IMG/VR virus record: IMGVR_UViG_3300027608_000171
Coordinates: 1-22,260 of that record
Source: a virus
DNA: 22,260 nt
Direction: 5' to 3' (one strand)
Shown: positions 2,627 to 22,098 of the stretch, piece after piece
How positions within the stretch are numbered: position 1 is the stretch's first letter
Layout of the letters: the number at the start of each line of letters is the position of its first letter
Notes under the pieces: generated by a model
What the model saw: the letters and a program-made list of their open reading frames with translations, nothing else
The model's database searches: none
What the model was told of the DNA's origin: nothing
Translations under genes and position numbers: made by a program

Positions 2627-3814
2627 ATGGCATTAAATTTAATTCGTAATAGTCGAGTGTTCTTCACGACTAATGTAGACAGTAATGGTAGGGTCAAAGA
2701 CACAGACTTCCTTGCTTCAAACACATTTGAGATTCAAGTCCAAGACGGATTTTCATTCTCACAAAATTCAGCTCAAGAAACAGTTACACTAAATGAAGCT
2801 GGTGCAACACCAGTTCGCGGACAACGAAGTTTTAATACTTCGCTAGAACCCGCAGATTGGAGTTTTTCCACTTATATGCGTCCTAGATACCTAGAAGGTG
2901 CAACAACCACTACTGGCTACGACGCCGACGACACAGTTGCTTGTGAAGAGTCTGTGTTATGGGGGGCTATTTCAAGTTCAGACGGCGCTGGATGGGTAAC
3001 ATCTACTTCAACATCAACTTTTACAGATAAAAGAGCTAGCTATGCCACTTTTTCTGGTTCTAACAAGCACCAATTACAACGATTTGGTTTAGTTATTAAG
3101 TTTGATAACTCAGCTTATATTATTGATAACTGTGTTCTTGATACAGCCACTATTGATTTTGGTATTGATGCTATTGCTAGTATTGCTTGGGCTGGTAAAG
3201 GTATGAATGTACGTGAAGCTACTATTGTATTAGATGCAACCCCTGCTTCATTTCACGTAACTGTTAATCCTGCAGTAGCAGCTGGAGTTTATCAACCAAA
3301 AAATACTACTGCACCTTATATAGCTAATAAGTTGTCAACTATGACACTTACAAGCAATGCAACTACACCTGTTGTATACACAATAGCCTTAACAGGTGGA
3401 AGCTTAAGTATTGCTAATAATGTAACATATTTAACACCAGCCAACTTAGGTACACTAAATGTGCCTTGTACGTATTTCACAGGTACGCGCACTATAACAT
3501 CTAATGTTACTGCTTACTTAAAAACAGGTACAGGTTCTCCTTCAGCTTTACTATCAGCTTTACTAACTGCTAATAGTACTGAAAACAAGTTTAGTGCTTT
3601 AATTTCTATTGGTGGCAGTGTTGCTGATACTAATAAAGTAGAATTGGTTATGCCTACAACTATGTTATCAATTCCAACCTTAACCACAGAACAAGTTATT
3701 TCAACAGCAATTACTTTAACTGCTCAAGGTTCTGCTCTTGGCACTGCCGGTAGTACATACGACATTGAACAAGCTAATGAACTTACTGTTAAATATTACG
3801 CAGTACCAACTTAA
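2627..3814 (+). CDS. Major tail tube protein
   Basis: 395 residues, forming the tube through which DNA passes. The N-terminal half (about 1-205) has the all-beta pattern of phage tube proteins: A-L-N-L-I-R-N-S-R-V-F-F at the start, then F-E-I-Q-V-Q-D-G-F-S-F-S-Q-N and R-G-Q-R-S-F-N-T-S-L-E-P. The second half (about 210-395) carries T-G-G-S-L-S-I-A-N-N-V-T-Y-L-T-P and Y-F-T-G-T-R-T-I-T-S-N-V-T-A-Y-L, which I associate with a second tube-like domain in longer siphovirus tube proteins. GGAAAG lies just before the ATG and is a good ribosome binding site. An 84-base leader and a terminator behind it (3834-3865) make this nearly a stand-alone gene, fitting its need for high copy number. Its place between terminator-like and chaperone genes is standard. 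Confidence 0.85.
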   Translation: MALNLIRNSRVFFTTNVDSNGRVKDTDFLASNTFEIQVQDGFSFSQNSAQETVTLNEAGATPVRGQRSFNTSLEPADWSFSTYMRPRYLEGATTTTGYDADDTVACEESVLWGAISSSDGAGWVTSTSTSTFTDKRASYATFSGSNKHQLQRFGLVIKFDNSAYIIDNCVLDTATIDFGIDAIASIAWAGKGMNVREATIVLDATPASFHVTVNPAVAAGVYQPKNTTAPYIANKLSTMTLTSNATTPVVYTIALTGGSLSIANNVTYLTPANLGTLNVPCTYFTGTRTITSNVTAYLKTGTGSPSALLSALLTANSTENKFSALISIGGSVADTNKVELVMPTTMLSIPTLTTEQVISTAITLTAQGSALGTAGSTYDIEQANELTVKYYAVPT

Positions 3815-3833: not shown

Positions 3834-3865
3834 AGAGACTGGTTTGATCTCCAGTCTCTCTTTTT
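3834..3865 (+). terminator. Intrinsic terminator after the major tail protein
   Basis: AGAGACTGG (3834-3842) and CCAGTCTCT (3851-3859) form a perfect 9-bp stem with an 8-base loop, followed by CTTTTT. I see no new promoter before the chaperone gene, so this should act as a partial terminator that lowers chaperone expression relative to the tube protein. Confidence 0.85.
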
Positions 3866-3879
3866 AATCTTATTATAAA

Positions 3880-4305
3880 ATGACTATTAATACTCTCTCT
3901 TTAAAAACACTGTTAGTTCCTTCAAAATCAGTACAGGTTGAATATCCTGGTATGCCTGGTTTTATGATTGATTTGGCATTTTTATCTCGCGAAACACTTT
4001 TGTCAATTCGCAAAAAGTCCACAAAGACTAGCTTTAAAAATCGTCAAGCTTCTGAAGAATTTAACGAAGATTTATTTCTACAACTTTACGTTGAAAATGC
4101 TATTAAAGGATGGTCCGGTTTTAAACTGACTTATCTTGAACAACTAGCACCAGTCGACTTAAAAGAACAAGACATGGGAGCAGACTTAGGTTATAGCGCA
4201 GAAAATGCACTTTACTTAATGAAAAACTCCAGTAACTTTGATGCATTTATTAGCGAACAGGTCACAGACTTGGGAAACTTTTCGACGACCAGCTCCAGCA
4301 AGTAA
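3880..4305 (+). CDS. Tail assembly chaperone, short form (gpG-like)
   Basis: 141 residues, made when no frameshift occurs. By analogy with lambda gpG, it would coat the tape measure protein and recruit tube subunits without entering the virion. Visible features are an early beta segment with V-E-Y-P-G-M-P-G-F (about 20-28) and a mostly helical middle with A-I-K-G-W-S-G-F (about 74-81). The last residues are serine/threonine-rich. The reading frame is closed upstream by TAA at 3865-3867, so ATG 3880 is the first possible ATG, yet no Shine-Dalgarno sequence precedes it (AATCTTATTATAAA). Low initiation, together with the terminator in front, would keep the amount small. Role assigned from position between tube and tape measure genes plus the frameshift site at 4272-4278. 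Confidence 0.8.
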   Translation: MTINTLSLKTLLVPSKSVQVEYPGMPGFMIDLAFLSRETLLSIRKKSTKTSFKNRQASEEFNEDLFLQLYVENAIKGWSGFKLTYLEQLAPVDLKEQDMGADLGYSAENALYLMKNSSNFDAFISEQVTDLGNFSTTSSSK

Positions 4306-4318
4306 ATCTGCAGTTGGT
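4272..4318 (+). promoter_or_regulatory. Programmed -1 frameshift signal: slippery site and hairpin
   Basis: The heptamer G GGA AAC (4272-4278) is in the correct zero frame (..TTG GGA AAC TTT..) for a -1 slip to GGG AAA, matching the X XXY YYZ rule and resembling lambda's GGGAAAG. About 9 bases on, ACCAGCT (4288-4294) pairs with AGTTGGT (4312-4318) with one G-U, then after a C-C mismatch CAG (4296-4298) pairs with CTG (4308-4310), leaving a 9-base loop that holds the zero-frame TAA (4303-4305). The -1 frame is open from after TAG 4251-4253 to TAA 4662-4664. Site, frame and hairpin are read directly; efficiency is unknown. Confidence 0.88.
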
Positions 4319-4664
4319 TAACTACATTCAAAATATGGGCGTGTCAATGACTAAAGACATGTATTTTGAAATGTGTGAAACATTAGGTACTGAACCTATA
4401 GAGTCTGAAATTCCGGTTGAATTTGACGACTTTCCATTTGAAGTGCAGCAAGCGTTTAATGCGTATAGAATGCTGCGAGATGAGTGGGATTTCATGAACG
4501 GAAACTACTTAGGTAAATCCTTAATAGGTATTAAAGATGTTTTAGAAGCAACAGAGGTTGATCCTTCTGAGCAAAAATTTATAGTTATGCTAATACGCGT
4601 AATTGATAATATTAGATCAGAAGAAATCAATAATAAGAAAAAAACACAAGAGCCTGCTAATTAA
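4278..4664 (+). CDS. Tail assembly chaperone, -1 frameshift extension (gpT-like)
   Basis: This is the second half of a G-T type fusion: 133 residues from the 3880 frame, then 128 from this frame starting L-F-D-D-Q-L-Q-Q, about 261 in all. The extension should bind tube subunits, as the lambda T domain does. It contains M-Y-F-E-M-C-E-T-L-G-T-E-P, a D-F-P-F-E-V-Q-Q-A-F-N segment, and W-D-F-M-N-G-N-Y-L-G-K, a pattern I know from tail chaperone extensions, then a charged lysine-rich tail. A separate start (for example TTG 4314) is possible but has no ribosome binding site and would cut into the conserved region, so it is best read as part of the fusion. The stop codon lies inside the stem of the following terminator. 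Confidence 0.85.
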   Translation, partial: LFDDQLQQVNLQLVNYIQNMGVSMTKDMYFEMCETLGTEPIESEIPVEFDDFPFEVQQAFNAYRMLRDEWDFMNGNYLGKSLIGIKDVLEATEVDPSEQKFIVMLIRVIDNIRSEEINNKKKTQEPAN

Positions 4665-4681
4665 AATTAGCGGGCTTTTTT
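4651..4681 (+). terminator. Intrinsic terminator after the chaperone genes
   Basis: AGCCTGCTAATT (4651-4662) pairs with AATTAGCGGGCT (4665-4676) with a single G-U pair, and a run of six T follows (4676-4681). The stem includes the chaperone stop codon. It isolates the chaperone transcript from the tape measure unit, which has its own promoter 20 bases on. Confidence 0.92.
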
Positions 4682-4700: not shown

Positions 4701-4729
4701 TTGACAACTGCGTGGTCACATGGTATAAT
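4701..4729 (+). promoter_or_regulatory. Perfect-consensus sigma70 promoter with extended -10
   Basis: TTGACA (4701-4706), a 17-base spacer and TATAAT (4724-4729) are all consensus, and TGG before the -10 supplies an extended -10 motif. The start of transcription would be near 4736. It drives the tape measure gene and probably everything down to the terminator at 22119-22153, since I see no convincing terminator or promoter in between. The promoter at 22157-22185 shares TTGACAAC and TGGTATAAT with it. Confidence 0.93.
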
Positions 4730-4782: not shown

Positions 4783-7700
4783 ATGAGTAACGATACAACA
4801 GTTTTACAAGTTAAGCTAGACGACCTAGGAACCATTGAGAAGATTGACAATAAACTCAAAAAGGCTAGAGGTACCTTTGACTCATTTGATAAGCAGGTGA
4901 GTAAAGGTCTTGGCGGTGGAAAAGGTACTAGTGGTTGGAAAAAAGCCACAATGGGTACTAACGAATACGATATTGCCAGGGGTAGTGCCGGCGCCACAGG
5001 TGCGTCAGGACGAGACTTTGCAAACCAAGCTCGTGGTCTTGATGGATTAGTACGTCTATATGCTACTTATGCTGCCAATGTGTTTGCAGCTGGAGCAGCT
5101 TTTCGTGCATTAAGTGATGCAGCAGATACTTCAAACATGATTCAAGGTATGAATCAATTAGGTGCTGCTAGTGGAACAGCGTTAGGTACTATTGCTCAAA
5201 ATTTAAGAAATGCTACCGACGGCGCAATTAGTATGCGCGAAGCAATGGAAGCAACTACAAAAGGTACTGCTGCTGGATTGTCTGGTAAACAAATGGAGCT
5301 GCTAGGCAACGTTGCAAACAAAGCGTCTAAAGCTTTGGGTATTGGTATGCCTGACGCTATTAGTCGTTTGACTCGTGGTATTTCAAAACTAGAGCCTGAG
5401 TTACTAGACGAACTTGGTTTATTTACAAAAATAGGTCCCGCCACAGAAGATTATGCCCGTAGCATAGGTAAAGCTACAGGCAGTTTAACAGACTTCGAAA
5501 GACGTCAAGCATTTGCTAATGCCGTGCTAAAAGAAGGTATGGACAAATTTAGTTCGATTGATATACCTGCTAATCCCTACGATAAACTTTTAGCTAGTTT
5601 AAAAGATTTAAGTTTTGTAGCACTAGAAATTACTAACAAAGCTTTTGTACCCCTAGTTAATATATTGTCCCAAAATCCTGTAGCATTGCTTGGAGTTTTA
5701 GCAACAATAGGTGCATCAATAATTAAAAGTGCTATTCCTGCTTTAGGACAATATCGAGATAATTTAAAGAAAACTGCTGACGCAAGTCGCATGACTTTTA
5801 GTACTATGTACGCCGATCAGCAAGAACAGATAGGTATGGGAGCAGCGGCCGCAGGTGCAGCTGCTGAAAAAGCTTATAAAAAATCAGCAGCTACACAAAG
5901 TAGAATTCAAGAACTTTCAAAAAATGCTACTTTTAGTAAAACTAACAAAACAGACTATGCTGGATTAGCTGCTAAAGATCCATTTGCTCTTACAGCTGCA
6001 GAAATAAAATCTTTAGAGCGTCGTGCTAACGATTTAGCTAAACGAAATTCTGAAGAAGCTACCAGACTTAAAGCACACATTGCTGAATTAAAAGCAATAC
6101 GTGCGGGTGCCGAACTTGCTAATACAAATGTGCAAGCTGTTGCTTTAGCTAAAGGTACAGGTGTGCTCAGTACAGTCTATGCTAATGATATTATACAAAA
6201 ACGTACATTAAATAAATTAGCAAGTGATAGCATTAGATCTACAGCTGCAGAAACTCAAGCAGTTTATGGAGCCAGAACAGCTTATACTAAATTAAATGAC
6301 GAAATTAAGAAAGCTAGAGCCGGCCAATTAATGGTACAAATTGGTAGCGAAAAGAATGGTGATGCAATTATGAAACCCGCTCCATACATGAGTGCGTTTC
6401 AAGCAGGTTTAACTCGTACAGCCGGACTTACTGGTATAGTGGTACAAAAAATTGGCTCGCTAGTTTCAGCATTTGGAGTATGGGGTATGGCTATAGGTGC
6501 TCTAGTTGGAGCATTTGCTTTACTTGACTCTTGGTTTACAAAAACAGAAAAAGAAGCAGACGCTTTTAATAAAGCAATAAAAACTACTTCAGACGCAGTT
6601 GATAATTCAGCCAGAACTTTAGCAGCTCTTGCAAAACAACCTGGAATAGCTACAGCCTCAATTCAAGGTTTTTTTGCACTTTCAAATGCAAGTAACACTA
6701 CAACTGATGCAATTGAAACACAAATTCAAACTACTAAAGATTTATTAAAAGCGTTGGATAATAGTGGCTGGGATCGTGCAATAAATAATATTAAGGGATT
6801 GTTTGATAAAGATGCTAATTCTGAGTCAGCAAAAAATCTTGCCGCTACAGTACAGCAACAGTTGCAACTATTTCGTGCAGCGGGTATGGGAGATGAAGCA
6901 GAAGCAAGTTTTAAGAGAGCCATTGGTGTAAATAGTTTAGATCTTACTACTGTAGCAGCAAGATTTAAAGTAAGTACTAAAGCACAAGACGAGTTCCAAA
7001 TATCAAATAAAGCTCTTGCTGTTAGACTAGCGGAATCTAGTGCCAGACTTCAATCTTTTAAAACCGCTACAGAAAATGTTACAAAAGCCTATGATGAGTT
7101 TATACAATCTACAGCTAATAGTAATCCTTTATTTAAAATTGGAGCTGCCTTAACAGACTTATCATTAGTCATGGATGATTTAACAAAAGGTAGTCTTCAT
7201 GACATAAATGCTGCTTTTAATGACTTAGCAACTACTCCTAGGAAAATTGCACAGTTTGGTCCTGAGTTTGTTGAGCAATTTGTCGCAATACGCGCACAAT
7301 TTAAAAATACATTACAAGATTACACAGCATATGGACAAAGCCTAGCAGCTGTACAAGACCAGATAACTGCAAAAACAGAAGAATTTATACATGCTAAAGA
7401 CCCTACTTTCTGGGGAATTGGACCGCAAGATACAGGAAGTGCACAAGAACAAAGAGATATGTTAGGTGGAGAAATACGTGGTCTTAAACAAGCTGAAGGC
7501 ACATTACTAAACTTACAACTTGGTATAGATAAGAAAGTTTTTCAACAAGCCACAGAGTTATTTGGAAAAGGTGTTGAGATTTCTTTTAAAGAAGGTGCAA
7601 AATATATAGATATTGCACTTGGCCAAGCCTCTCAAAAAGCTGCACTTACTATTGCACAAGCTACGTTGCAGTCACTATCTGGCCCAGAAGCTGCAGCACG

Positions 7701-9816
7701 CACAGGCCAATTAAAAGACCAAGAAATTGGTGTTCAAATTGAAGCAATAACTACTACCATGAAGTTAATTAGAAGTAATATGGACTTAGAGTTAATATTA
7801 CAAGAAGTTAGTGATAGAATGGCTGTGCAAGATGCTAAAGACGCTAAAAAATCTCCTGGAACAATTGCAGAACTAGAAGCTAAGCTAGCTGGAACCCGAA
7901 ATTTTAGAGAAACATTAGCCAACAACCCGACTGGCATGATTAAACTTGAAAATCTTTCATCAACAGATCCAGATAATCCGCAGTATACAAGAAATGTAGA
8001 TGATCCGCAAATTAAATACGAAAAAAATTATGCTAATAAACTTCAGAATTTGTTGGGCCCACAGCTTGCTGCTTTAATATTAAAAAATAGTGAAAGAACA
8101 GCAAATTCTTTAGATACTAAGCAAAAAGTAAATCTAGGCGAGCTTGCTAAGGCAAAGCAAATAGCAGACGCTAGTAATGCTACACTACAACAAGAAATAG
8201 CAAGAGAAGATATTTTAATGAGCATTAATACTCTTAATGCTTCAGAAAATCTTGCTAAAAAGCAAATGTTAGAGATGCAAGTATTAGACAGTAAGTTTCT
8301 TCTAGAAAGACGTGGGTACGAAACAGCAATAACAAATGCAAAAATGGATAAGTCTAAAGAAGGTAAAGCTGAAGTCACAAAACAAGAACTTCTACTAGCA
8401 GAAGTTATAAAAAGACAAGAAAAAGAAAAAGACAATAAAGGTGTAGATAATAGAGTCAAACTTAAAGCGCAAGAGCTACAGCAAGCTACAACTTTAAATA
8501 GTCTAAACGAAGCAATACTTGATCAAGATATAGCTAGATTAGGTATAATTAGTAGTTTAGTTGGATTCTCTTCAGAGCAAAACGTAAAAGCAACAGCAAG
8601 ACTTGAAAACGAAAAGCTAGAAAATAAGTTTGTATTAGAGCGCAAAAAGGTAGAAAACGAAATAGAGGCTCTTAAGATCGGCTCACCTGGAGACGCTAAA
8701 AGCATAGCTTCAGCAGAAACAAACCTGAAGTTAGTTATAGCTAGACAAGAAAAAGAAAAAGATAACAAGGGACTACAAGATAGTTTAAAACTTATAGAAG
8801 CCCGCTTCGCGGTAGAACAAAAATTAGCTGGGTTTAAGAAAACCACAGCAGATGCTCAAAGCGGTAAAGCAGAAGACGAATTAAATTATAGAAAAGCACT
8901 TAATTTAGTTACGCCTGAAGCGGCCGCCAAAGAAAAAGCAGATTTAGACAGGGCCAGCGCACTTAGAGAATTTAATCAAGGACAATCTGATGTAAATAAG
9001 GAAAAAGAGAAAAGAGAACTAGCACAAAAAAATGCAGACGTTGATGAATTCGGTAACTATTCTAATCTTGCTCAGGTTGAGTCAATGACAACAATGAACA
9101 AAGTTATAAACGAACAAAGCAAGGCTTTTCAAGCTGTTTACGATCAAAAATTGGCTGCAGCTGATCAAACGGAAAATCTTTCTAGTAAAATGACTAGTTA
9201 TTCTAACATTGTACATGGTGCTTTCCAAAGTATGGGCGATGCTTTAGCTGAATTTGCCAGAACTGGTAAACTGGACTTTAAAGGTCTTGTAGATCAAATG
9301 TTGATGGATTTAATTAGATTTGAATTACGTGCGCAAATGTCTGCATTATACGGTGGTATGGGTGGACTTAATGGTATGCTAACTGCAGGTGTCTCACTTT
9401 TTACTGCAACACCTGTAGTACCTTCCGCTAAAGGTAGTGTATACGATACTGGATTGCAAACATACGCCAAAGGTGGAATGTTTACTAATTCAGTTGTTGA
9501 TCAACCTACCCTATTTAAATTTGCACAAGGTACAGGTTTAATGGGCGAAGCAGGTCCCGAAGCTATTATGCCCCTAAAGCGTGACAGCAATGGTAATCTT
9601 GGAGTTCGAGGTGGCGGTAGCAATGTAGATGTAGTTATTAACAACTATAGCACTGAAAAAGCAACTACTAAAGAAACTATGGATTCACGTGGAAATCGTC
9701 GTATCGAAGTAATGGTTGGGGATATGGTAGCAGGCGAATTAAACCGCGTAGGCTCAAATACTCAGCAAACAATGACAACTAGTTATGGTACAGCACCATT
9801 ACTGGCAAGGAGATAA
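4783..9816 (+). CDS. Tail tape measure protein
   Basis: 1677 residues. It fills the tube lumen, fixes tail length and is ejected with the DNA. The C-terminal end has the lambda gpH-like signature G-L-M-G-E-A-G-P-E-A-I-M-P-L-K-R (about 1585-1600) after a glycine/alanine-rich stretch. Hydrophobic segments at about 88-110, 298-322 and 558-583 suit membrane insertion during ejection. Residues about 1120-1480 are charged, coiled-coil-like and contain two copies of a roughly 110-residue repeat. At about 0.15 nm per residue, as for lambda gpH, the tail would be near 250 nm, which is an estimate. AGGAG lies 6 bases before the ATG, and the gene has its own consensus promoter. It is the first gene of the long downstream unit. 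Confidence 0.95.
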   Translation: MSNDTTVLQVKLDDLGTIEKIDNKLKKARGTFDSFDKQVSKGLGGGKGTSGWKKATMGTNEYDIARGSAGATGASGRDFANQARGLDGLVRLYATYAANVFAAGAAFRALSDAADTSNMIQGMNQLGAASGTALGTIAQNLRNATDGAISMREAMEATTKGTAAGLSGKQMELLGNVANKASKALGIGMPDAISRLTRGISKLEPELLDELGLFTKIGPATEDYARSIGKATGSLTDFERRQAFANAVLKEGMDKFSSIDIPANPYDKLLASLKDLSFVALEITNKAFVPLVNILSQNPVALLGVLATIGASIIKSAIPALGQYRDNLKKTADASRMTFSTMYADQQEQIGMGAAAAGAAAEKAYKKSAATQSRIQELSKNATFSKTNKTDYAGLAAKDPFALTAAEIKSLERRANDLAKRNSEEATRLKAHIAELKAIRAGAELANTNVQAVALAKGTGVLSTVYANDIIQKRTLNKLASDSIRSTAAETQAVYGARTAYTKLNDEIKKARAGQLMVQIGSEKNGDAIMKPAPYMSAFQAGLTRTAGLTGIVVQKIGSLVSAFGVWGMAIGALVGAFALLDSWFTKTEKEADAFNKAIKTTSDAVDNSARTLAALAKQPGIATASIQGFFALSNASNTTTDAIETQIQTTKDLLKALDNSGWDRAINNIKGLFDKDANSESAKNLAATVQQQLQLFRAAGMGDEAEASFKRAIGVNSLDLTTVAARFKVSTKAQDEFQISNKALAVRLAESSARLQSFKTATENVTKAYDEFIQSTANSNPLFKIGAALTDLSLVMDDLTKGSLHDINAAFNDLATTPRKIAQFGPEFVEQFVAIRAQFKNTLQDYTAYGQSLAAVQDQITAKTEEFIHAKDPTFWGIGPQDTGSAQEQRDMLGGEIRGLKQAEGTLLNLQLGIDKKVFQQATELFGKGVEISFKEGAKYIDIALGQASQKAALTIAQATLQSLSGPEAAARTGQLKDQEIGVQIEAITTTMKLIRSNMDLELILQEVSDRMAVQDAKDAKKSPGTIAELEAKLAGTRNFRETLANNPTGMIKLENLSSTDPDNPQYTRNVDDPQIKYEKNYANKLQNLLGPQLAALILKNSERTANSLDTKQKVNLGELAKAKQIADASNATLQQEIAREDILMSINTLNASENLAKKQMLEMQVLDSKFLLERRGYETAITNAKMDKSKEGKAEVTKQELLLAEVIKRQEKEKDNKGVDNRVKLKAQELQQATTLNSLNEAILDQDIARLGIISSLVGFSSEQNVKATARLENEKLENKFVLERKKVENEIEALKIGSPGDAKSIASAETNLKLVIARQEKEKDNKGLQDSLKLIEARFAVEQKLAGFKKTTADAQSGKAEDELNYRKALNLVTPEAAAKEKADLDRASALREFNQGQSDVNKEKEKRELAQKNADVDEFGNYSNLAQVESMTTMNKVINEQSKAFQAVYDQKLAAADQTENLSSKMTSYSNIVHGAFQSMGDALAEFARTGKLDFKGLVDQMLMDLIRFELRAQMSALYGGMGGLNGMLTAGVSLFTATPVVPSAKGSVYDTGLQTYAKGGMFTNSVVDQPTLFKFAQGTGLMGEAGPEAIMPLKRDSNGNLGVRGGGSNVDVVINNYSTEKATTKETMDSRGNRRIEVMVGDMVAGELNRVGSNTQQTMTTSYGTAPLLARR
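8196..8845 (+). repeat. Two-copy ~110-residue repeat inside the tape measure gene
   Basis: Residues about 1139-1246 and 1247-1355 resemble each other: K-F-L-L-E-R / K-F-V-L-E-R at 1171 and 1282, and the motif R-Q-E-K-E-K-D-N-K-G at 1211 and 1321, exactly 330 bases apart (8413 and 8743) with a 20-base identical DNA core. A weaker partial copy may precede them (Q-K-V-N-L-G-E-L-A-K, before residue 1127). Tandem duplication in the ruler region would lengthen the tail. Confidence 0.7.
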
Positions 9817-16681: not shown

Positions 16682-17005
16682 ATGTACGGTATGCAAATTA
16701 ATGATGCTATAGGCAATACTTACTATGATTCAACTAGTGAGGCAGGAATTTTTGTTGAGTTTTTAACATTATTTATAACAGGTAGTGGACTAGACAGATA
16801 TATTACTTATAATGGTGTAGGCGGTAAAGCAAACTTACAAGGACGAAGACTAAGATTGGTTACTTTGTATTCTGGTGATCATTGGCACGAGGCTGTAGAT
16901 AACGGTACTAGTGGTTATCCGCAAATAAAATACAATGAAACTAAACCAAATGTACCCGTAAGTAATGTTAGACGTGGAACAATTTTAATGGTACTAGCAC
17001 GATGA
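16682..17005 (+). CDS. Small tail tip protein, unknown function
   Basis: 107 residues, beta-rich, no signal peptide or membrane segment. The first residues Y-G-M-Q-I-N-D-A-I-G-N-T-Y-Y-D-S match the start of the next protein (Y-G-F-K-F-T-N-N-N-G-D-L-I-I-D-D) and even better an internal segment of it (191-206). It has G-D-H-W-H-E (about 65-70), and the end R-R-G-T-I-L-M-V-L-A-R looks like a final strand. AAGGA overlaps the upstream stop, with the same TAAGGAATA context as the previous gene. Its stop overlaps the next start (ATGA, 17002-17005). Position suggests a connector or cap between the J-type fibre and the large Calx-beta fibre; this is inference. Confidence 0.6.
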   Translation: MYGMQINDAIGNTYYDSTSEAGIFVEFLTLFITGSGLDRYITYNGVGGKANLQGRRLRLVTLYSGDHWHEAVDNGTSGYPQIKYNETKPNVPVSNVRRGTILMVLAR

Positions 17006-20000
17006 CTTACGGCTTCAAATTTACTAATAATAACGGTGACTTAATTATTGATGATTCTAATGTTAAGCCCTGGTATTTTACAGGATCAATTGCTGGTACC
17101 AGCAATTTTTTTGGACAAAACTACAAAAACATAGACGTTACTTATAATGCTTATGAATTTGGATCTTTTAACCCTACAGCAGCGTATCAACCAAGTAGCT
17201 ATGTAACTAACCCCTATTATACTGAAGATAAGTGGACAGTATATGAATTACGATATATAGCTCCAAATATTAGTGATTGTTTTTTTGCTTATACTCTTCC
17301 TCGAAGTAATGATACAGGCATCTGGTATTTTACACAAGATGCAGGTTTAGGTCAGGGCGGTCAAGCAACTGCAGGCGCAGGCCCTATACATTTATTGAAT
17401 AATCCTAAAATAGATAGCTTTCCTTACCCATACACTTTTGACTATTATGTTTCAATATTTGCAATAGTTCCTAATCGTTTCAATTTAACTAGTGCACAGC
17501 TACAAGCAGCTGTGCCAAAAGTATACTTTTTTTCAAATAAAGAAGTATCTAATAACATACTTAGCACTGGATATGGTCTGCAAGTATTTGACAGTACTGC
17601 TAAATGTATGTATGATTCTGGAAAAATACACATTCAATTTAAGGATTATTCTTTTCAAGACTGGCGTATTCCAGCACCCCCATACACCGCGGGACCTGAT
17701 TACAACGGAGCAACTATTGTAACATTTCCTATAAATACGTCTAATCCTCCAAGTAATACTGCTTTTGTAATACCTGCATCTTCTCAATATTTCTATAGAG
17801 AGTATCAATCTAATGAGTATGGAACTCTTGGTGCTGTTGATGTTCACAGAACAATGGTACAAAGAGTAGACAGTGGTACAGATACTGGAAGCGTTAGCAC
17901 ACTACGTACTAGAACTATTAAAGTGACAACGCAATCTACTCAGGCTTTAGGATGGGGAAATACAATTCCAGGAGTAGCTCCAAATACTTGGTGGAATTAT
18001 GGCGCCAACTCCTACAGTAGTTGGCTAGGTCAAGTGTATAATATGAGTATTATAGCAGTAGACACGACTCCTCTTGAACGAGGATATACCGCCAGCCAAT
18101 TTCCTTCTACTTTTAGCGTTACTGTAAATAAAACAGCTGTACTTGAAGGTAATAGTGATACTCCTCCTTACCAAGTAATTTTTACACTAACTACTTCACG
18201 AGTTGAGAATGGGTCTCAAATTGGGTATACTATTGCAGGTACTAATATTACTCTTGACGACATTCAATTTGTTACACGTAATGACGAATTAATACTTCCG
18301 AAATCTTTAACTGGATTTTTTACAGTAACTAATAATATTGGTACTATTAAATTAACTATTAGTGAAGACTACGTAACAGAAGGCACTGAAACTTTAACTT
18401 TATCTTTGAATAATGGACTATCTAGCGCTTCTGTTTCTTTGACAGAAGATAAAGCATATAGCCTATCATTTATAACCGCACCAGATACAACTACAGCAGG
18501 AGTGCCTGGATTTAATGAAGATACTAATGGCAATAATCGAGCAGTAGTATTTCAACTAAAAACAAAAAATGTTGCAACAGGCACATATATTCCTTGGAGT
18601 ATTTTAAATCTTTCAACAGATGCAGACGATTTTACTCAAGGAAATAGTGGTGACTTCATTATTGAAGCTTTACCTGTTGGAAATGCTCAAATAGATGGTT
18701 TTAACGGACAAGACACCGGAGCAATAATACTAAAAAGAGATCTAAAAACAGAAGGTACAGAAAATGCTAGAATAAGATTAACTGATATGCCTTCGGTTTA
18801 CTTAAATTTTGATATCATAGACAACTCAACTACCCCAATACCAGTATTTAATATGTTTAATCCAAGTGGTAATACTACTGGTGTTGTTTACTTAGATGAG
18901 GGCACAGAGTACGCATGGGTTATAACTGCTACAAACCTTCCTGCCGGTACTGTGGTATACCCAAGAATTATAGCAAATACAGCAGGATTTGCAGATCTTG
19001 ACTTAAGCCCTTGGTACTCAGGCGGTAGCTATAACGGAGTTGCATTAGGTAGTGGTGGTGCAGCAGTATTTAGAATGACTCCTGTAGCTGACTTACTGCG
19101 CGAAGGTACAGAAAACTTTACAGTAGCATTAGATTATCCATTAAATACAAGAGTACACACTTATCCTGGAACAGTATTTATTAATGATACTTCCAAGCCC
19201 CCAGAAGTATATAGTCTAAGTGTTAGTAATCAATTTACTAATGAAAATGAAATACTACGTATTACAATTACTTCTAGTTTAGATTATGCTCATCCAGTAC
19301 ATTGGAACTGGGAAGGGGTAGATCTAGGAACTTCTTATGGTGAAATCAGCCTAGCCGACATTTCTAGTATGAGGTACTATGATCCAGAAACTAATATTAG
19401 CGGAGGTGCTCAGTATACTAATTTTACTCCTAGTACTCAAGGAACATTTAGCTTTCCAACGTCTGGACTTAAATCCAGCAATTTACAGCTTGCTATAGAG
19501 TTTATACTTAATAACGATGGTGTTACAGAACAGCCAGAATACGGACAACTATATCTACGACCCATAGGTGGATATACTGGGTCAATTAATGGTTCTACTG
19601 GATTTTTTATACGAGATGTGCCTATAGTTACTTATAGTGTTGCTCCAAATGTTACAAGTATAAATGAGGGTGGTACTCTTATCTGGACAATTACAAGTGA
19701 GAATGTTGTAGACGGAACAACAATATATTGGCAACAAACAGGAACTAATACAGCTGCTGATTATAACGACAATCTTAGTTATAGTACTATTAATATTATT
19801 AATAATACAGCAACAATAACACGTGTAGTTAAAGCAGATGCGGCTGCTTATGAGGGGCCTGAAACAGCAGGTATGAGTTTATTTACCTATGGACCAGGCG
19901 GCACAATAGTTCCTTTAGCAAATTCTGCAACTACAGTAACTATTAATGACACTAGTGTAATATCTCAAAACGAAGTATTAACTATTAGTCCTTCAATGGT

Positions 20001-22098
20001 AACATACCCTAACGCAACGACACTTTCAATTACTGGAGGCACTCCTAATACTGTTTTTCGTTACGGTTTAGATAACCTTAGTTACTCAGGAAGTGCAACA
20101 TTAGACGCAAATGGTAGTTACTATAATCCTAATGCAGGACCTGGTGAAGTTGTTGGATCACATACAGTGTATGTAAAATTCGACTCTACACAAAATACTC
20201 GTCAAGCTTCTTGGTCCGTAGTGGCAGCAGCAACCTATGTATTAACAGCTTCTGTTAGTACTGCTAATGAAGGTACTAATTTTACAATTAGTTTTAGTAC
20301 CAATCAAGCAGGTAGTTTTGGTTATACTATTACGGGAGGGGTTAGTTCAGCAGATATTAACGGAGCTAGTTTAACTGGAACCGTTAGCAATGGTAGTGTA
20401 ATAACATACACTGTTACCGCAGACGCTACTACTGAAGGCACAGAGTATTTTACCTTTTCATTGAACAATGGCCAAGCTATAGCATACGTTAATTTTAATG
20501 ACACTAGTACAACAGTATATAATGAAGTAGTATCAGTTACTCCACTTTCTGTAGTTTCTCCAAACGGTGTTACCTTTAGTATTACCGGAGGCACACCAAA
20601 TGGAAGCTATAGATTTAGTGTTAATAATACTAGCTATGATAGCCCAGTTTATTACTTAGATGCTAATGGTAATGCAAGTAGTCCTCCTGGTAATGCAGGA
20701 TCAGGTTTTAATCCTGGAAACTATACAATCTATGTTTATTTTATAGACACTGGTCATACTCGCCAAACCCCAACCTGGACTGTTACCTCTCCAGCACCAA
20801 CTTATTCATTTTATAGGGATCAAAGCTTAAGAAATGAAGGCGAAGTTATTAACTATACTATTACAACTACTAATGTTGCAGATGGTACTCGTATATATTG
20901 GATTAATTATGGTGAGACAGATGCCAATGACTTTACATCATTTACTAATCAAGGTTTTGTAACAATAAATAACAACAGCGGTAGTTTTTTCAGGCAGCTA
21001 AGAAATGACGCTACCACAGAAGGCGAAGAAACTGTTTGGATATTCTTTTACTCAGATTCTGGTTATAACAACTTAATAGGATACGTAGGACAAACAACTG
21101 TAAGTGATACTAGTCAGACTAGTTACCCTGCTGCAGGAACTTTTATAAGTGAGTATTGTGCAGCATATGGTACAGAACCGTATACATTAAATAAAGTATA
21201 TGCTAACGGAAGTGGTGGTACATATACTGAAGGTACTCATAACAGCCCTACTTGCGGATATACAACACCAACATATACATTAACAGCTTCTGTTGGTCAT
21301 TTTGGTGAGGTTAATGAAGGTAGTAGCTTTACAATTAGTTTTAGTACTAATCGACCAGGTAATTTTGGTTATCAACTTGCAAATGTCACTTCAGCAGATC
21401 TTAATGGTGCGCCATTAAGCGGAACTGTCAGTAATGGTAGTGTAATAACATACACTGTAACTGCAGATACTACTACTGAAGGCAGGGAGTATTTTACTTT
21501 TACACTGGATAACGGCCAAGCTTCAGTATATGTCCAGATTATAGACACTAGTATCTCTTATCCTGCTGCAGGAACTTTGTTAAGTCAAGCATGCGATGGA
21601 AACTATACAAGGACTGGAACTTACGCTAATGGTAGTGGCGGTAGTTATAATCAAGTTATTGAATATAACTCTGCTTATTGTGGATATACACCGCCAGCAG
21701 CAAGCGCTCCATTAGTAACGTCTGTAACGGTTACTACTGGAACATTTTATCCAGGAGAAGTCGTTGAAGCCATTATTAACTTTAACGGACCAATAACTGC
21801 TACTACTTATCTAAATGTACAGCTAAATGCAGGTGGTTACGGTGTTTTCTATGTTCCAAACGGCACAGCTAGTGGGGGTTTTGCTCCTTCTTATGGTTAC
21901 GGCGGTGCTGGAGAAAACGTTCAAATGTTAGTAGGTGCTACAAGTGCTTATTATACAGGTCCAGCAAATCCGGGTCAACTGTATGTTGGTAACGCTAGAA
22001 TTTCTGCAAAAACAGTAACTGCTACTAGCGGTGGCAGTGACAGACAAGCCTATATTCAAAGTAGTAGCTTTAGATTAGAAACAGGAATCGCTCCATAA
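17002..22098 (+). CDS. Large fibre / receptor-binding protein with Calx-beta-like repeats
   Basis: 1698 residues. The N-terminal part (1-370) has two Y-G-x-x-x motifs (3-18 and 191-206) like that of the preceding small protein and probably anchors it to the tip. Then follow about eight Calx-beta-like domains (371-483, 486-611, 614-731, 736-873, 877-985, 1078-1169, 1267-1371, 1424-1517), recognised by an early N-E-G, a late T-E-G-x-E and an N-D-T-S-type end. Among them are two Ig-like domains (990-1076, 1174-1263) and two short two-cysteine modules (1374-1422 with Cys1386/Cys1418; 1519-1564 with Cys1531/Cys1560). The last 130 residues are a glycine/tyrosine-rich beta domain, the best candidate for receptor contact. 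Calx-beta domains often bind calcium. It is the last gene before the strong terminator. No chaperone gene follows within the window. Confidence 0.8.
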   Translation: MTYGFKFTNNNGDLIIDDSNVKPWYFTGSIAGTSNFFGQNYKNIDVTYNAYEFGSFNPTAAYQPSSYVTNPYYTEDKWTVYELRYIAPNISDCFFAYTLPRSNDTGIWYFTQDAGLGQGGQATAGAGPIHLLNNPKIDSFPYPYTFDYYVSIFAIVPNRFNLTSAQLQAAVPKVYFFSNKEVSNNILSTGYGLQVFDSTAKCMYDSGKIHIQFKDYSFQDWRIPAPPYTAGPDYNGATIVTFPINTSNPPSNTAFVIPASSQYFYREYQSNEYGTLGAVDVHRTMVQRVDSGTDTGSVSTLRTRTIKVTTQSTQALGWGNTIPGVAPNTWWNYGANSYSSWLGQVYNMSIIAVDTTPLERGYTASQFPSTFSVTVNKTAVLEGNSDTPPYQVIFTLTTSRVENGSQIGYTIAGTNITLDDIQFVTRNDELILPKSLTGFFTVTNNIGTIKLTISEDYVTEGTETLTLSLNNGLSSASVSLTEDKAYSLSFITAPDTTTAGVPGFNEDTNGNNRAVVFQLKTKNVATGTYIPWSILNLSTDADDFTQGNSGDFIIEALPVGNAQIDGFNGQDTGAIILKRDLKTEGTENARIRLTDMPSVYLNFDIIDNSTTPIPVFNMFNPSGNTTGVVYLDEGTEYAWVITATNLPAGTVVYPRIIANTAGFADLDLSPWYSGGSYNGVALGSGGAAVFRMTPVADLLREGTENFTVALDYPLNTRVHTYPGTVFINDTSKPPEVYSLSVSNQFTNENEILRITITSSLDYAHPVHWNWEGVDLGTSYGEISLADISSMRYYDPETNISGGAQYTNFTPSTQGTFSFPTSGLKSSNLQLAIEFILNNDGVTEQPEYGQLYLRPIGGYTGSINGSTGFFIRDVPIVTYSVAPNVTSINEGGTLIWTITSENVVDGTTIYWQQTGTNTAADYNDNLSYSTINIINNTATITRVVKADAAAYEGPETAGMSLFTYGPGGTIVPLANSATTVTINDTSVISQNEVLTISPSMVTYPNATTLSITGGTPNTVFRYGLDNLSYSGSATLDANGSYYNPNAGPGEVVGSHTVYVKFDSTQNTRQASWSVVAAATYVLTASVSTANEGTNFTISFSTNQAGSFGYTITGGVSSADINGASLTGTVSNGSVITYTVTADATTEGTEYFTFSLNNGQAIAYVNFNDTSTTVYNEVVSVTPLSVVSPNGVTFSITGGTPNGSYRFSVNNTSYDSPVYYLDANGNASSPPGNAGSGFNPGNYTIYVYFIDTGHTRQTPTWTVTSPAPTYSFYRDQSLRNEGEVINYTITTTNVADGTRIYWINYGETDANDFTSFTNQGFVTINNNSGSFFRQLRNDATTEGEETVWIFFYSDSGYNNLIGYVGQTTVSDTSQTSYPAAGTFISEYCAAYGTEPYTLNKVYANGSGGTYTEGTHNSPTCGYTTPTYTLTASVGHFGEVNEGSSFTISFSTNRPGNFGYQLANVTSADLNGAPLSGTVSNGSVITYTVTADTTTEGREYFTFTLDNGQASVYVQIIDTSISYPAAGTLLSQACDGNYTRTGTYANGSGGSYNQVIEYNSAYCGYTPPAASAPLVTSVTVTTGTFYPGEVVEAIINFNGPITATTYLNVQLNAGGYGVFYVPNGTASGGFAPSYGYGGAGENVQMLVGATSAYYTGPANPGQLYVGNARISAKTVTATSGGSDRQAYIQSSSFRLETGIAP
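19969..20790 (+). repeat. Ig-like domain pair (19969-20229 and 20521-20790)
   Basis: Both begin N-E-V-(L/V), then x-S-I-T-G-G-T-P-N, (Y/D)-L-D-A-N-G or L-D-A-N-G, a V-Y-V strand, and T-R-Q-x-x-W-(S/T)-V. They alternate with Calx-beta domains, so a two-domain Ig + Calx-beta unit seems to have been duplicated. Confidence 0.75.
20233..21552 (+). repeat. Nearly identical Calx-beta domain pair (20233-20508 and 21271-21552)
   Basis: The two domains share most residues (N-E-G-x-x-F-T-I-S-F-S-T-N, S-A-D-x-N-G-A, then G-T-V-S-N-G-S-V-I-T-Y-T-V-T-A-D). The DNA is also close, with a 26-base identical run (20389-20414 and 21433-21458). They are much closer to each other than to the other Calx-beta domains, which points to recent duplication within the gene. 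Confidence 0.85.
21121..21693 (+). repeat. Two-cysteine module pair (21121-21267 and 21556-21693)
   Basis: Each copy reads S-Y-P-A-A-G-T-x-(I/L)-S, a Cys, then Y-A-N-G-S-G-G-(T/S)-Y, and a final Cys-G-Y-T. The cysteines may form a disulfide or bind a ligand. The copies flank the last Calx-beta domain. I recall similar short modules in fibres of environmental phages but cannot name a family. Confidence 0.75.

Follow-up and report, generated by a model that had tools for sequence, protein, structure and literature searches.

How is the second of two overlapping tail chaperone frames in this virus fragment translated: from a start codon of its own, or by ribosomes that leave the first frame shortly before it ends? 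The window, that is, the whole stretch of 22,260 bases that was analysed, carries a siphovirus tail module, and the chaperone pair (3880-4664) sits between the major tail protein gene and the tape measure gene, whose product is the expected client of the pair. The features of the locus are given below.

366-2105: neck/tail completion protein
2102-2542: tail terminator
2627-3814: major tail protein (PHROG 3575)
3880-4305, + strand: G-like tail assembly chaperone, zero frame, 141 aa (PHROG 313, E 7.7e-14)
4272-4278, + strand: slippery heptamer G_GGA_AAC in X_XXY_YYZ phase
4278-4664, + strand: T-like extension, -1 frame, 128 aa and stop (PHROG 3914, E 5e-12)
4287-4294, + strand: 5' arm of the hairpin, beginning 8 nt past the heptamer
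4295-4311, + strand: hairpin loop, holding the zero-frame TAA
4303-4305, + strand: zero-frame stop codon TAA
4312-4319, + strand: 3' arm of the hairpin, including TTG 4314 (a Leu codon, not a start)
4783-9816, + strand: tail tape measure protein, 1677 aa (PHROG 3779/1716, E 2.7e-42)
3' of the tape measure gene: minor tail and tip genes

Both chaperone domains match a T5-like family (PHROG 313 and 3914), and sequence matches were found in 895 phage records, largely T5-like phages of enterobacteria and vibrios. The neighbour genes are T5-like as well, with PF25747 (T5_p143) upstream and PF23818 for the terminator. Pfam gave no match for either domain or for the fusion, and the pair was not placed in the lambda gpG family by sequence; the search of isolates returned none close to the window's T5-related aquatic lineage. 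Thus, the term 'lambda-like' in the original prediction is apt for the mechanism but not for the proteins, which belong to PHROG 313/3914 with T5-like nearest isolates and neighbour genes. The AlphaFold model of the gene-1 product (pLDDT 85.6) matched T5-like 'tape measure chaperone' models (best E 7.2e-13); weaker matches were the pre-tape-measure chaperones of CcrColossus (E 8.9e-4) and Loki. The second domain was modeled with a pLDDT of 89.3, and its predicted first helix spans frame-2 residues 2-22, beginning in the overlap and covering TTG 4314. Fold searches of the PDB with both domains were without a match, as was the sequence search.

Several elements surround the pair. A terminator-like hairpin at 3834-3859 separates the major tail protein gene from the chaperone gene, and by eye another inverted repeat, followed by T residues in a run, was seen 3' of the pair at about 4653-4681. 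A perfect sigma-70 consensus promoter (TTGACA-17-TATAAT, 12/12, with TG preceding the second hexamer) is present at 4701-4729 and ends 54 bases 5' of the tape measure start. The start of chaperone gene 1, ATG 3880, has no SD-like sequence in 3860-3880; such a sequence is likewise missing at the gene-1 start in 58/81 loci of the GGGAAAC group and present in 38/38 T5-family loci. The tail module closes with a repeat-rich protein of 1698 aa (17002-22098), perhaps a fibre or adhesin.

The slippery site and its predicted product

The codons TTG (4270), GGA (4273) and AAC (4276) put GGGAAAC in the exact X_XXY_YYZ phase, which agrees with the frame claimed for it. In the -1 frame, TAG at 4251 precedes a stretch that is open from 4254 to 4661 and ends in a stop codon at 4662-4664, so the second frame does lie at -1 and is open across the site as proposed. 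The joined product, announced as a G-T type fusion of about 261 residues, was computed to be 261 aa, its junction falling between ...TDLGN and LFDDQLQQ.

From the window sequence alone, neither the heptamer nor the fold downstream of it is significant. When the tail of gene 1 was recoded synonymously, some X_XXY_YYZ heptamer arose in 23.5% of the trials and GGGAAAC itself in 0.8%, and the window holds three copies of GGGAAAC where 1.55 are expected. RNA folding gave an 8-bp stem (4287-4294 with 4312-4319) located 8 nt 3' of the heptamer with an MFE of -11.5 kcal/mol, but 31 of 200 shuffled sequences folded equally well (z -0.98). It is the conservation in relatives that makes the site non-random.

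The locus is best read, by a wide margin, as a -1 programmed ribosomal frameshift that yields a G-T-type fusion, and we hold this reading with little doubt. Most ribosomes would translate 3880-4305 and produce the 141-aa chaperone, and a minority would be paused by the hairpin while GGA and AAC are decoded. The two tRNAs would then slip back by one base, from GGA to GGG and from AAC to AAA, and the slipped ribosomes would exit the zero frame ahead of its stop and continue to 4661. The resulting 261-aa product would consist of the chaperone without its last 8 residues and the 128-aa extension. If the pair works as lambda gpG/gpGT does, the short form would coat the tape measure protein and the scarce long form would recruit tail-tube subunits. 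We infer the occurrence and efficiency of slippage as well as the short-to-long ratio and the roles of the two forms in tail assembly, the latter two by analogy with lambda (PMC5009743). Considering that E. coli prefers AAG over AAC as the second codon (PMC5009743), the frameshift efficiency at the AAC-ending heptamer of the window may be low, although the preference is that of E. coli and perhaps not that of the host.

Conservation of the heptamer, the hairpin and the second frame

Some 280 loci from IMG/VR and from annotated phages were compared with the window; the searches that supplied them made no use of the site. Aeromonas phage Akh-2 (L092) was excluded because gene 1 is broken in its record, a misread of L034 is explained by the contig end alone, and the mixed alignment A1 was too divergent for use as a search query. 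GGGAAAC was present in 80/80 nearest relatives, in which the second frame measures 127-128 codons save where the contig ends. Among the loci in the -1 register, 132 carry GGGAAAC and 107 carry AAATTTT (84 and 78 distinct, respectively), and none is without a canonical in-phase heptamer; in 14 further marine loci, obtained with a Vibrio T5-like query, A_AAT_TTT was found at -1 in 14/14. The alignment of related phages had been proposed as a check, with loss of the heptamer as the outcome to fear, and no relative in the -1 register has lost it, the changed ones carrying another canonical heptamer. In a tree of 77 representative fusions, A_AAU_UUU appears in two separate places, so at least two changes of heptamer type took place without any change of the -1 register. 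In one locus, L236:1917-3413, frame 2 runs to 499 codons and reaches into the tape measure frame; its near-twin L237 differs, and the long frame is probably due to a one-base sequencing difference.

The codons that make up the heptamer are frozen at the synonymous level. In the 84 distinct loci of the GGGAAAC group, which encode Leu-Gly-Asn, Leu is written only as TTG (48) or CTG (36), though G-ending codons make up 23% of all Leu codons in these genes. Gly is only GGA (25% of usage) and Asn only AAC (48%), and in the AAATTTT group Asn is only AAT and Phe only TTT. The in-frame codons of the heptamer show zero codon entropy and are the two lowest among 66 conserved columns in the former group and among 34 in the latter, where the medians are 1.0 and 1.1 bits, respectively.

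The downstream structure is present in the window's clade and covaries there, such a structure being usual for sites of this kind and not required. Across 49 distinct sequences of the clade, 97.7% of the cells over the 8 pairs are paired, and two stem pairs change on both sides. The stem covariation was 0.142 compared with 0.108 in shuffles, none of 500 shuffles reaching the former, and slid controls gave at most 0.066. The original prediction had described a mismatched hairpin about 9 bases downstream that ends at 4318. The stem is real and begins at 8 nt, with its end one base further on, at 4319; the inner 3-bp helix that gives the mismatched look is not conserved, whereas the outer 8 bp are. 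The loop does enclose the zero-frame stop, and this layout is conserved in the window's clade, with the same stop at +24 in 80/80 nearest relatives. Part of the stem is disrupted in L077 and L078, which diverge most within the clade, and the sister clade includes several GGGAAAC loci in which no clear stem was seen. Two alternative stems occur in the marine A_AAU_UUU clade, and each of the 54 aligned rows retains 7 or more pairs of one of them (40 near, 14 far); a near-invariant CAAGUA arm pairs with the nearer or the farther copy of UACUUG. The alternative pairings join columns 16-21 of alignment A4 with 29-34 or 38-43, as in L236 and L263. Since the same arm can pair with either copy, the hairpin has slid between species.

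The rival that survives best, though we consider it very improbable, is that of two separate genes, with translation of the second chaperone beginning at TTG 4314 or at an ATG further on, possibly through reinitiation once the TAA at 4303-4305 has been read. TTG lies 8 nt past the stop, ATG/GTG codons follow at 4335, 4341 and 4347, and in many public records of T5-like phages an internal start is given for the second gene. However, the codon at 4314, frame-2 codon 12, is kept as Leu in 66 of 70 unique sequences and not as a start, being TTG in 44, TTA in 11, CTG in 6 and CTA in 4. No SD-like 4-mer precedes any frame-2 start within the first 40 codons in 74/84 GGGAAAC loci, 76/78 AAATTTT loci and 37/38 T5-family loci, and 36/78 A_AAU_UUU loci have no ATG, GTG or TTG at all in those codons. 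Judged from the substitutions, frame 2 is coding ahead of any usable start codon: from the overlap onward changes are synonymous in frame 2 rather than in frame 0 (0.61 versus 0.11 over codons 9-20). The frame-specific substitution ratios for the first 8 codons of the A_AAU_UUU group (0.14 versus 0.41) carry no weight here, the start codons serving in their place. A start at 4314 would moreover truncate the helix predicted at the beginning of the second domain and would leave the synonymous freezing of the heptamer without an explanation. The search by sequence for an independent second protein near 4314 thus met starts that mostly lack an SD and a TTG that is not conserved as a start. As had been argued beforehand, calling the second ORF from TTG 4314 would be wrong, and separate genes are strongly disfavoured.

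Transcriptional rather than ribosomal slippage could also join the frames, and we give it next to no weight. Slippage-prone runs serve transcriptional slippage in other genes, and the marine loci do carry A4T4; the longest runs at the window's site are GGG, AAA and TTTT, however, and runs of this kind are too short by general experience. Transcriptional slippage also needs neither an in-phase heptamer nor a conserved hairpin at a fixed spacing. As for a single gene split by a sequencing error or a frame-disrupting mutation, which the -1 offset by itself resembles, this is hardly credible and is refuted by the relatives, in which the identical offset and site recur in 162 distinct loci from many metagenomes and the overlap holds conserved signals. 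Programmed frameshifting is therefore the reading we retain. Uncultured aquatic phages commonly carry this chaperone pair, and its annotation is settled by that reading, with the second chaperone assigned to a frameshift and not to an internal start.

The opposite register in the T5 family

The homologous pair of the T5 family (Demerecviridae) shares 28-37% identity and the same neighbours with that of the window, and in both frame 2 begins at the same protein position, just past Asn/Thr-Phe. Whereas frame 2 of the window lies at -1, that of the T5 family lies at +1 and follows an in-phase UUU_CGN, which was found in 38/38 distinct loci including T5 and Sugarland (drawn from L082-L094, L095-L120, L282-L284 and L300, with L284 taken as T5). 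These loci span Markadamsvirinae, Mccorquodalevirinae, Ermolyevavirinae, Novosibvirus, Pogseptimavirus and others, and their sites are ACU_UUU_CGU in 29, AAC_UUU_CGA in 3, AAC_UUU_CGU and UCC_UUU_CGU in 2 each, and ACC_UUU_CGU and GGG_UUU_CGU in 1 each. In T5 and Sugarland, some 150 open codons come after ACU_UUU_CGU. Among the conserved codons of the gene TTT varies least, and the overlap is read synonymously in the second frame (0.47 versus 0.03). No common hairpin was seen in the T5-family loci. The window itself lacks this site, having frame 2 at -1 and UUU_UCG in place of UUU_CGN.

Public T5-family records mostly annotate two separate genes. The record of Shivani joins both frames in a 277-residue entry whose length fits a -2 shift, and the joining is not discussed in the Shivani paper. 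A -2 shift, which gives the same frame as +1, was considered for the T5 family; tRNA-Phe would mispair at -2 in AAC_UUU phages, while at +1 it re-pairs perfectly (UUU to UUC). A shift by +1 is preferred over one by -2, short of proof. In the genome report of Sugarland, T5 and Sugarland are described as being without a predicted frameshift signal (PMC6256483); the family has a strongly conserved frame transition nonetheless, in the direction opposite to that of the window. A +1 site in the T5 chaperones was not described anywhere in the literature within reach of the search, most subscription journals lying outside it.

In the tree, the +1 group falls on one side of a branch with support of 99/97, so a single register switch suffices. 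The register thus appears to have switched once, although the long branches, above all that of L091, urge caution. The AAC_UUU_UCG of the window has one extra U relative to the AAC_UUU_CGA of Vibrio phages, which is enough to turn the need for +1 into a need for -1. The distant fold matches are predicted to use -1, which hints that this register may be the older of the two. We consider it probable, with clearly less assurance than the frameshift in the window, that a homologous pair changed its type of recoding, the aquatic T5 relatives using -1 tandem slippage with a hairpin and the T5 family a +1 slip of tRNA-Phe on a hairpin-free UUU_CGN. If so, a +1 fusion chaperone of about 275 aa would have gone unrecognised in T5 itself, and because T5 grows on laboratory E. 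coli the +1 claim is directly testable. Specialists would do best to look at the register switch and at the +1 site of T5.

Comparison with known recoding sites

The +1 site of influenza A PA-X is UCC_UUU_CGU, and those who described it expected UUU_C sites to form a class (PMC3498833), of which the T5 family, if the above is true, would be a bacterial case. The T5-family phages My1 and DU_PP_V carry UCC_UUU_CGU in phase, identical to the PA-X site; as virus and ribosome are unrelated, this is a resemblance only, and it does not concern the window.

For the -1 register, Xu, Hendrix and Duda reportedly described a conserved tail-chaperone frameshift of long-tailed phages in 2004. Its conservation in these phages and the lambda gpG/gpGT site, G_GGA_AAG, are documented (PMC5009743). 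GGGAAAC has been predicted as the chaperone frameshift site of HCTV-1 (PMC5009743) and, according to the parts of the reports consulted, of Caulobacter phage CcrColossus (PMC3556154) and Burkholderia phage KL1 (PMC3483164), and AAAAAAC has been predicted as the -1 site of the pre-tape-measure chaperone of Loki (PMC5313236). In these parts, the heptamer and gene place of CcrColossus and KL1 are identical to those of the window, whereas no hairpin is described for either phage and neither is listed among the sequence matches. Like lambda gpG/gpGT, the pair of the window lies just 5' of the tape measure gene, has an X_XXY_YYZ site at the end of gene 1 and gains a C-terminal extension in the -1 frame. 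It differs from lambda in that its heptamer ends in AAC instead of AAG, its proteins belong to a T5-like family without a Pfam match, and a conserved hairpin holds the zero-frame stop in its loop. Overall, the site of the window is a frameshift of the lambda G/G-T kind in a T5-related aquatic lineage.
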